Shown: positions 22,349-24,558 of the stretch, piece by piece
Numbering within the stretch: the stretch's first letter is position 1
Layout of the letters: the number at the start of each line of letters is the position of its first letter
NCBI GenBank assembly: GCA_938016355.1
Contig: CALLWO010000012.1
Location: forward strand, 1 to 36,285
Length of the DNA: 36,285 nt
Reading direction: 5' to 3'
From: an uncultured Boseongicola sp.
GTDB lineage: Bacteria > Pseudomonadota > Alphaproteobacteria > Rhodobacterales > Rhodobacteraceae
Made by a program: the position numbers and the translations under genes
Notes under the pieces: model-generated
Told to the model about the DNA's origin: nothing
The model's input: the letters and a program-made list of their open reading frames with translations, nothing else
Databases searched by the model: none

Positions 22349-23428
22349 ATGGCCGATTTGAAAGACCGAATCCTTGACAGTCTAAAGTCCGTACCGGTGC
22401 CCGGCGGCGGCACTTTGGTTAGTCGCGATCTCGTCCGAGCCCTGAATGTTGAAGAAGGCGCCGTGCGCTTTGTAATTGAAGCGCCGTCCGCTGAAGTCGC
22501 CGCTGGATTTGAACCGGCCCGAATTGCGGCTGAGAAAGCCATTCGTGAAATCTCGGGTGTTAAGTCTGTTAATGCTGTACTGACAGCGCATGGCCCTGCT
22601 GCGCCGGCACAAAAAGCGCCGCCATCCCTAAAGGTCGGAGGGCACCCAACGCCACAGCAGGGCGGGCCACAAAAAGTTTCGGGAGTAGACCGGATCATTG
22701 CTGTCGGTTCCGGCAAAGGAGGCGTTGGGAAATCAACAGTTTCGTCTAACCTTGCTGTCGCGCTTGCAAAACAAGGCCGCCGCGTTGGGCTGCTGGATGC
22801 AGATATATATGGCCCATCGCAGCCCAAGATGATGGGAATTCAAAAGCGCCCATCTTCGCCAGATGGAAAAACGATTATCCCGCTTAAATCCCATGGCGTC
22901 ACTCTTATGTCGATTGGCTTTATGGTTGAGCCGGAAAAAGCCGTCGTTTGGCGGGGACCTATGCTCATGGGCGCTCTTCAGCAGATGCTGGGCCAGGTCG
23001 AATGGGGCGAGTTGGATGTATTGATAATCGATTTGCCGCCCGGAACAGGTGATGTGCAGCTTACCCTTTGTCAGCGGACCGAGGTTACAGGGGCGATTGT
23101 GGTCTCAACTCCGCAAGATGTAGCCCTTTTGGATGCACGCAAGGCCATTGATATGTTCACTACGCTTAATACCCCGATTCTGGGTTTGATCGAAAATATG
23201 AGCACATATGTCTGCCCTAACTGTGGGAATGAAGAGCATCTGTTTGGGCATGGCGGAGTTCGCGCGGAAGCAGAGCGACTCGGGGTTCCGTTCCTCGGAG
23301 AACTACCTCTCTCCCTTGATGTTCGGCTTGCCGGCGATGCTGGCCAGCCTATCGCCATGGGCGAGGGGGCAGCGGCGGTTGCTTATGGTCACTTGGCAAG
23401 TCGGCTGATCGGCGGAGGCATGGGATAG
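22349..23428 (+). CDS. mrp: Mrp/NBP35 family Fe-S cluster carrier ATPase
   Basis: N-terminal MIP18/DUF59-like region, deviant Walker A GKGGVGKST, LIIDLPPGTGDVQLTLCQ, CPNCGNEEHLFGHGG. Confidence 0.95.
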   Translation: MADLKDRILDSLKSVPVPGGGTLVSRDLVRALNVEEGAVRFVIEAPSAEVAAGFEPARIAAEKAIREISGVKSVNAVLTAHGPAAPAQKAPPSLKVGGHPTPQQGGPQKVSGVDRIIAVGSGKGGVGKSTVSSNLAVALAKQGRRVGLLDADIYGPSQPKMMGIQKRPSSPDGKTIIPLKSHGVTLMSIGFMVEPEKAVVWRGPMLMGALQQMLGQVEWGELDVLIIDLPPGTGDVQLTLCQRTEVTGAIVVSTPQDVALLDARKAIDMFTTLNTPILGLIENMSTYVCPNCGNEEHLFGHGGVRAEAERLGVPFLGELPLSLDVRLAGDAGQPIAMGEGAAAVAYGHLASRLIGGGMG

Positions 23429-23531
23429 CCATCCCAGTTTCTTTTCCGACGGCTCCATATTCAAATAGGCCTCAAGAGTAATGATCCAAGAATGCGTAGC
23501 CTAGGCCTGCGTTTCCTTATGGCGTGTGTTT

Positions 23532-23650: not shown

Positions 23651-23781
23651 AACCGGAATTAGTTTTGAGTCACTACATATAGTTATAGATTTGCAATATT
23701 TGGTGAAAATCGCACAATATCTGGAAAATCAGATATGAATCTTTCGCATATCTCCATATTTTTATGAAAAAATTTGTTGTC

Positions 23782-23796
23782 TCCCATGAATTCCCA
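23782..23796 (-). promoter_or_regulatory. MraZ-box-like pair (reverse orientation) TGGGA-N5-TGGGA
   Basis: Plus strand TCCCATGAATTCCCA; reverse complement TGGGAATTCATGGGA, 10-bp period. Confidence 0.5.
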
Positions 23797-23819
23797 TGGC
23801 ATGTTCTCTTCATCGGATA

Positions 23820-24027
23820 GAGCGGGACAGTATCAAGGGGCGCAAAAAGACCCCGAACCCAAACAACAAGCAGGTTTCATACAGGCACCCAGCTTCATCC
23901 AATTGAGAGATCCGGCGCGCGGGCGAGCAGACATCCCCCCAGGTGGCGCGCGCAGCTGGACATTCCCGGTAACGGGACGAGGGCGGCGGATCGGACACAT
24001 GGCAGCAGTCCGATCCGCCGTTTTCCT
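23820..24027 (+). ncRNA. UpsM-like sRNA / terminated 5' leader of the dcw operon (3' end well defined, 5' end approximate)
   Basis: Sits directly upstream of mraZ. Contains GC-rich inverted segments (CCCG-GTAA-CGGG; GCGCGC blocks) and ends in a 13-bp perfect hairpin CGGCGGATCGGAC...GTCCGATCCGCCG followed by TTTTCC. Confidence 0.65.
23984..24026 (+). terminator. Rho-independent terminator/attenuator about 40 nt upstream of mraZ
   Basis: 13-bp perfect stem, loop acatggcagca, then TTTTCC. Confidence 0.85.
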
Positions 24028-24063
24028 ATTTTGGGGGGGTGAATTTTAGGGAGCTACGGGACA

Positions 24064-24558
24064 GTGGTTCGGATGTTCAGAGGTGAAGGTGTCCAGAAGG
24101 TGGACACAAAGGGCAGGGTGTCTATCCCGGCCCATTATCGCCGTGTACTGGAATCTGGAGACCCATCCTATAGCGAAGGCAAAGCGCCGGAATTTGTGAT
24201 AGTGTACGGCGATCATCGTCGCGACTTTCTGGAGTGTTTCACCATCGACGCCGCAAACGACGTCGACGCACGGATCGCCGAGTTGCCCCGTGGCTCGGCG
24301 CGCCGTCGCGCAATGGAAAAGCTGTTTCACGGCCAGTCGTTGCCACTGACAGTTGATGAAACCGGCCGGATCGTTCTGCCTGCCAAGCTTCGTCAGAAGA
24401 TTGGTATCGAAGGCGAGGCTTACTTTATCGCTATGGGGGATACATTTCAGATTTGGAAGCCTGCGACGTTTGAAAGTCAGGACAGCGACGTCGAAGCATT
24501 GCTCGACGATCTTGGCGGAGCTGACATCTGGACCCTTCTTGAGGGAGAGGAGGGCTGA
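24064..24558 (+). CDS. mraZ: Transcriptional regulator MraZ
   Basis: VQKVDTKGRVSIPAHYRRVL and LTVDETGRIVLPAKLRQKIGIEGEAYFIAMGDTFQIW (two MraZ/AbrB repeats). First gene of dcw. ATG at 24073 is an alternative start. Confidence 0.95.
   Translation: MVRMFRGEGVQKVDTKGRVSIPAHYRRVLESGDPSYSEGKAPEFVIVYGDHRRDFLECFTIDAANDVDARIAELPRGSARRRAMEKLFHGQSLPLTVDETGRIVLPAKLRQKIGIEGEAYFIAMGDTFQIWKPATFESQDSDVEALLDDLGGADIWTLLEGEEG

Follow-up and report, generated by a model that had tools for sequence, protein, structure and literature searches.

In the window analyzed here, a 36,285-nucleotide (nt) stretch of contig CALLWO010000012.1 (assembly GCA_938016355.1) from an uncultured Boseongicola species of the Rhodobacteraceae, mraZ and the dcw genes are preceded by a 251-nt leader (23813-24063), whose ends we placed by alignment with Rhodobacter sphaeroides. 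The leader appears to encode an ortholog of the R. sphaeroides small RNA (sRNA) UpsM and contains a near-invariant 18-nt segment, site 1, which is perfectly complementary to a second, separately encoded sRNA found across the family. The source genome is a draft of 255 contigs, about 80% complete.

The leader RNA ends in an intrinsic terminator (R4), whose stem pairs the 5' arm CGGCGGATCGGAC (23984-23996) with the 3' arm GTCCGATCCGCCG (24008-24020) around the loop ACATGGCAGCA and is followed by TTTTCCTATTTT. The initial annotation had described a perfect 13-bp hairpin with a U-tract about 40 nt before mraZ; the hairpin is as described and the U-tract is present, but the tract is weak (UUUUC), and the distance is 43 nt from the end of the stem to the mraZ GTG, or 38 nt from the RNA end near 24025 to the mraZ start. 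R4 is the only perfect hairpin of at least 13 bp with a loop of 3-14 nt in the window, and five base-shuffled windows contain none; with a loop of 11 nt, it escaped the stock terminator scan, which allows loops of at most 8. The fold energy of 23800-24030 is -98.3 kcal/mol, compared with -73.5 +/- 4.7 for shuffled sequences (z = -5.3). The same annotation saw no convincing open reading frame (ORF) in the leader, and we agree: the sole ORF, of 16 codons, begins in the terminator loop, and its frame is lost in relatives. Features of the locus are collected in Table 1.

Table 1. Features of the dcw leader and its surroundings, in window coordinates.
Feature	Position	Strand	Description and basis
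Predicted promoter	23777-23805	+	-35 TTGTCT (23777-23782), 17-nt spacer, -10 CATGTT (23800-23805); spacing read from sequence
Probable MraZ operator	23783-23799	-	CCCAT-N5-CCCAT filling the -35/-10 spacer
UpsM ortholog, 213 nt	23813-24025	+	5' part of the dcw leader; R. sphaeroides alignment and R1 match
P0 long-range closing helix	23815-23900	+	Arms about 23815-23826 and 23888-23900; predicted fold
Hairpin P1, enclosed by P0	23837-23854	+	Predicted fold
Site 1	23870-23887	+	GCAGGTTTCATACAGGCA; near-invariant, perfect complement of second sRNA
Positions homologous to the published RNase E 5' end of R. sphaeroides UpsM	23893-23901	+	After 23893 (nt 77, from the 130-nt product) or 23900 (nt 85, from R. 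sphaeroides position 694,720)
R2 stem-loop	23912-23959	+	Near-invariant loop CGAGCAGACATCCCCCCAGGTG; stem covariation
R3 hairpin	23965-23976	+	CCCGGTAACGGG; sequence and fold, counterpart of R3 in PMC5089854
R4 intrinsic terminator	23984-24025	+	Perfect 13-bp stem, 11-nt loop with near-invariant TGGCAGC, tail TTTTC
mraZ	24064-24558	+	GTG start; ORF

For comparison with the published system, we recognized the R. sphaeroides genome by its reaction-centre H protein (100% identity over 260 amino acids) and located mraZ at chromosome 1 position 694,904, near the NtrX peak listed for mraZ. UpsM (RSs0682) is described there as a 206-nt RNA within a 268-nt dcw leader (PMC5089854), and counting 268 nt back from mraZ and then 206 nt forward leads exactly to the end of a terminator. 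The leader in the window aligns to this sequence from end to end, with 76.4% identity over 208 aligned nt, which bears out the UpsM-like sRNA proposed in the initial annotation and gives an RNA of 213 nt, from near 23813 to near 24025. The two leaders share locus, orientation, R1-R4 architecture, terminator and promoter position (the window promoter is homologous in position to that of R. sphaeroides, whose transcription start site lies 268 nt upstream of mraZ) and differ in length, at 206 nt in a 268-nt leader versus 213 in 251. A covariance model built on the UpsM core (R1) matches 23867-24028 with an E-value of 4.8e-41, a rough figure, as for all our home-made models, and one obtained with the window among the model's source sequences. 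An Rfam scan of the leader returned nothing above gathering score, only chance matches.

To follow the leader through the family, we scanned 395 Rhodobacterales genomes, in which all hits fell in Rhodobacteraceae, and 380 genomes of the same class outside that family. R1 matches 392 of the former, in 139 of 141 genera and in single copy, and none of the latter. Apparent second copies of UpsM were rejected: they were weak matches, matches to the opposite strand of the terminator palindrome, or one copy split between contigs. One of the three genomes missed has another strong hairpin and keeps the site-1 motif, which carries a single-base deletion; the other two, from one genus, have lost the motif and kept a GC-rich hairpin. 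Homologs of mraZ occur in 389 of 397 Rhodobacteraceae genomes. Motifs were counted in 130 family regions upstream of mraZ, with most tallies made over 129 relatives: the site-1 motif AGGTTTCATACAGGC is present within two edits in 129 of the 130 regions, GAGCAGACATCCCCCCAGGTG is exact in 105, and TGGCAGC occurs in the terminator region of 124 of the 129 relatives.

Base pairing is conserved as well. Among 41 diverse leaders, seven of nine pairs in the R2 stem covary and 10 of 12 in the R4 stem show compensatory changes, so that 17 of the 21 pairs have changed on both sides, with 97.5% of cells still paired; none of 500 shuffles reaches any of these measures, which also exceed every slid control. 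The long-range helix P0 has a folding energy of -19.5 kcal/mol with native arms and -16.6 +/- 0.25 with arms swapped between genera (129 leaders). A 2016 report termed the 5' domain of UpsM hardly conserved; contrary to that report, this comparison of folded sequences shows the domain retained as a long-range helix. Because of the R. sphaeroides alignment, the distribution of the covariance model matches and the covarying stems, we consider the identification of the window leader RNA as an UpsM ortholog, a member of the already known UpsM family, to be supported; it lies on the same strand directly upstream of mraZ, ends in a 3' intrinsic terminator, is homologous through R2-R4 and is restricted to the family.

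To follow up the conservation of site 1, we looked in 200 genomes for sequences complementary to its invariant 15 nt, with the reversed sequence as control. About 156 of the 200 have a second match beside UpsM, compared with 15 hits in all for the control. The second matches resolve to one sRNA gene of about 72 nt, at 39 Rhodobacteraceae loci, laid out as a promoter (TTCAAACTTTTNNCTTGG-N17-TATAAA) with a constant 6-nt gap from the -10 element to A+1, then the block ACTGCTCGATAGGTTTCTTGCCTGTATGAAACCTGCCTCA, then a covarying terminator with T8. All 40 consecutive nt of ACTGCTCGATAGGTTTCTTGCCTGTATGAAACCTGCCTCA are invariant in 37 aligned copies. The RNA is predicted to begin with ACUGCUCG and to measure 72 nt from A+1 to the fourth U. 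In R. sphaeroides the gene lies on chromosome 1 at about 1,444,0xx (L322; homologous loci are L292-L341 and L374-L377), and at the loci inspected it is flanked on one side by a 3-hydroxybutyrate-dehydrogenase-like gene and on the other by a gene that we read as a peptide-transporter binding protein and that has no family match. The seed is absent from all of the examined sRNA-model hits outside Rhodobacteraceae. An Rfam scan of the second sRNA gave sub-threshold matches only (SorX, 22.5 bits in R. sphaeroides). When open papers, without their supplements, were searched by oligo sequence, none mentioned it; an earlier catalogue entry is possible.

The UGCCUGUAUGAAACCUGC of the second sRNA is a perfect 18-nt complement of window positions 23870-23887. 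The duplex has an energy of -32.4 kcal/mol, and the longest run in 1000 shuffled RNAs was 11 bp. The sRNA displays UUGCCUGUAU in a hairpin loop, and the 5' arm of its stem, AGGUUUC, repeats part of UpsM site 1. Since site 1 contains the sequence of this arm, a natural route of pairing would be loop-first strand displacement. The homologue of the published RNase E cut lies 5-13 nt 3' of site 1. A cut a few nt 3' of an sRNA duplex is the known geometry of sRNA-guided RNase E cleavage, as in systems of the MicC-ompD type; here the target would be both an sRNA and an mRNA leader, and guiding is a candidate role only. The invariant 5' end of the second sRNA, CUGCUCG, is also complementary to CGAGCAG in the R2 loop (23924-23930), which is kept in 123 of 129 relatives; this second contact (site 2) is only suggestive, because by our estimate a 7-nt match has a chance probability of a few per cent.

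The reading that we favor, at a probability of roughly 0.82, is that this is an UpsM-type dcw leader in which site 1 serves as the docking site of a separate sRNA of about 72 nt that is not StsR, the UpsM partner already known from R. sphaeroides. Transcription would start near 23813, from a promoter whose spacer carries MraZ-box-like repeats, and most transcripts would end at R4 near 24025 as the 213-nt UpsM. Published work on R. sphaeroides describes dependence of UpsM on Hfq and RNase E. It also describes partial termination, with read-through in about 1 of 100 transcripts, no other mraZ promoter and no source of dcw transcript apart from this read-through (PMC5089854); by analogy, the remaining transcripts would continue into mraZ and the dcw genes, and dcw expression in this organism may be gated by terminator read-through. 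The second sRNA would dock on site 1 through its loop, its own stem would be displaced, and the final duplex would span 18 bp and lie immediately 5' of the RNase E cut. As the conserved partner of UpsM, it may then guide cleavage of the leader and UpsM, or itself be sponged by UpsM.

Several points weigh against this reading. Neither the model nor a pattern search allowing at most one mismatch recovered the second sRNA from the draft genome to which the window belongs (about 80% complete). In R. sphaeroides, site 1 has an internal C-A mismatch that shortens the run to 12 nt, whereas pairing in the window is perfect. UpsM processing in R. sphaeroides is sufficiently explained by StsR, with no further RNA needed. 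Finally, nested cofolding is unable to reveal a real opening of P0; it did hint that P0 opens on pairing, which we discarded as evidence because nested models force this result. Separately, one genome (L076, G029), whose leader has diverged strongly and lost site 1, also gave no match to the second-sRNA seed, a possible joint loss.

StsR (RSs0827), a 72-nt sRNA that binds Hfq and has an intrinsic terminator, pairs with nt 13-23 of UpsM and nt 245-256 of the mraZ leader, and its published effect is RNase E cleavage of UpsM (PMC8307010, PMC11354728). Another StsR target is rpoE, around whose estimated position the R. sphaeroides sequence used here consists of N. The initial annotation had suggested looking for StsR-like partner sRNAs; a candidate partner with a conserved pairing site was indeed found, but it is a different sRNA. 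The target of the StsR Northern probe, CCGTTCTACCTTCACTGTCC (PMC11354728), is absent from the second sRNA and, among all sequence fetched, occurs only at R. sphaeroides 858,073 (L346:18073), where an RNA beginning CCGGAACCCCCGTTCTACCTTCACTGTCCCTCGTTCCGCACTAGCGCC measures 72 nt to the fourth U and is complementary to the UpsM 5' arm over 11 nt and to the mraZ Shine-Dalgarno region over 12 nt. The two sRNAs thus differ in locus (about 1,444,0xx versus 858,073) and in pairing region (site 1 versus those of StsR); a length of 72 nt and complementarity to UpsM are common to both and insufficient for membership in StsR. SorY, SorX, PcrZ and UdsC were likewise ruled out as the second sRNA, since their published R. 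sphaeroides positions differ.

The StsR pairing regions are recognizable in only a minority of relatives, and for this reason we attribute the family-wide conserved pairing site to the second sRNA. When two genomes were searched for sequences complementary to the 5' arm of R. sphaeroides UpsM, only UpsM itself and one site with three mismatches appeared. In the window, GGGACAGT(G) occurs twice, within the 5' arm of UpsM (23824-23831) and at the start of mraZ (24056-24064); similar sequences in R. sphaeroides pair with StsR, the second over the mraZ Shine-Dalgarno region. On balance we lean toward a wider view in which a family-wide, nearly invariant and undescribed sRNA would have the UpsM/dcw leader as its conserved partner and would link expression of the cell-wall genes to its own control, with StsR as a second input. 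The direction of action could be reversed, with UpsM, abundant as a product of termination, acting as a sponge that draws the second sRNA from its mRNA targets and ties its activity to dcw transcription. The invariance of the sRNA block extends to cases in which site 1 of UpsM varies, which suggests other targets, but site 1 adjoins the RNase E cut and also belongs to the full dcw mRNA, which suggests control in cis; we hold the sponge to be possible, at somewhat below even odds.

The 18-bp pairing leaves unexplained the near-invariant R2 loop (CAGACAUCCCCCCAGG) and the terminator loop UGGCAGC, which could point to a riboswitch-like attenuator whose invariant loops bind a ligand or protein and whose refolding switches read-through. 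A riboswitch has been proposed for R. sphaeroides (PMC5089854), but there is no conserved alternative pairing between R2 and R4 (PMC5089854) and the leader has no Rfam match, and we regard such a switch as unlikely. SreA and SreB of Listeria also arise by termination inside a 5' leader; they are trans-acting sRNAs derived from S-adenosylmethionine riboswitches (PMC5089854), and the window UpsM has no shown ligand aptamer. For the invariant ACATCCCCCCAGGTGG of the R2 loop (23931-23946) and the TGGCAGC of the terminator loop (23999-24005) no partner was found; both are candidate binding sites for a protein, a ligand or a further RNA. That R4 simply terminates transcription of the upstream gene for an Mrp-like ATPase (22349-23428), and that mraZ is read from its own promoter, is very improbable: intrinsic terminators before operons are common, but that gene has a nearer candidate terminator at 23421-23436, the 38 nt before mraZ are too short for a promoter, and the leader is kept in 139 of 141 genera. 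We rejected, as equally improbable, attenuation by a leader peptide starting at [A/G]UG GCA GC of the terminator loop, because, although GTG or ATG begins the loop in 112 of the 124 relatives with TGGCAGC, the frame scatters among them, with the first stop 4 to 46 codons away or, in 55 cases, absent from the stretch read.

Our survey extends the published UpsM case from a few species to nearly all sampled genera, and covariation shows which of its structures are kept. The second sRNA offers a concrete reason for the oddest feature of UpsM, its single invariant segment, and reduces the purpose of UpsM and its processing to a testable 18-nt pairing site. If true, such a module of two RNAs, conserved family-wide and tied to cell-wall genes, would be rare. 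What is new beside the known UpsM, and worth following, is this apparently undescribed family-wide sRNA together with its 18-nt site.

Upstream of the leader, three NCCCA repeats with a 10-nt period (at most one mismatch) are present in 95 of 129 relatives, compared with 0.15 in shuffles. MraZ recognizes TGGGN-N5 repeats, and the CCCAT repeats in the promoter spacer of the window are, judging from this match, a probable MraZ autoregulatory operator, with a third box of this type in degenerate form.
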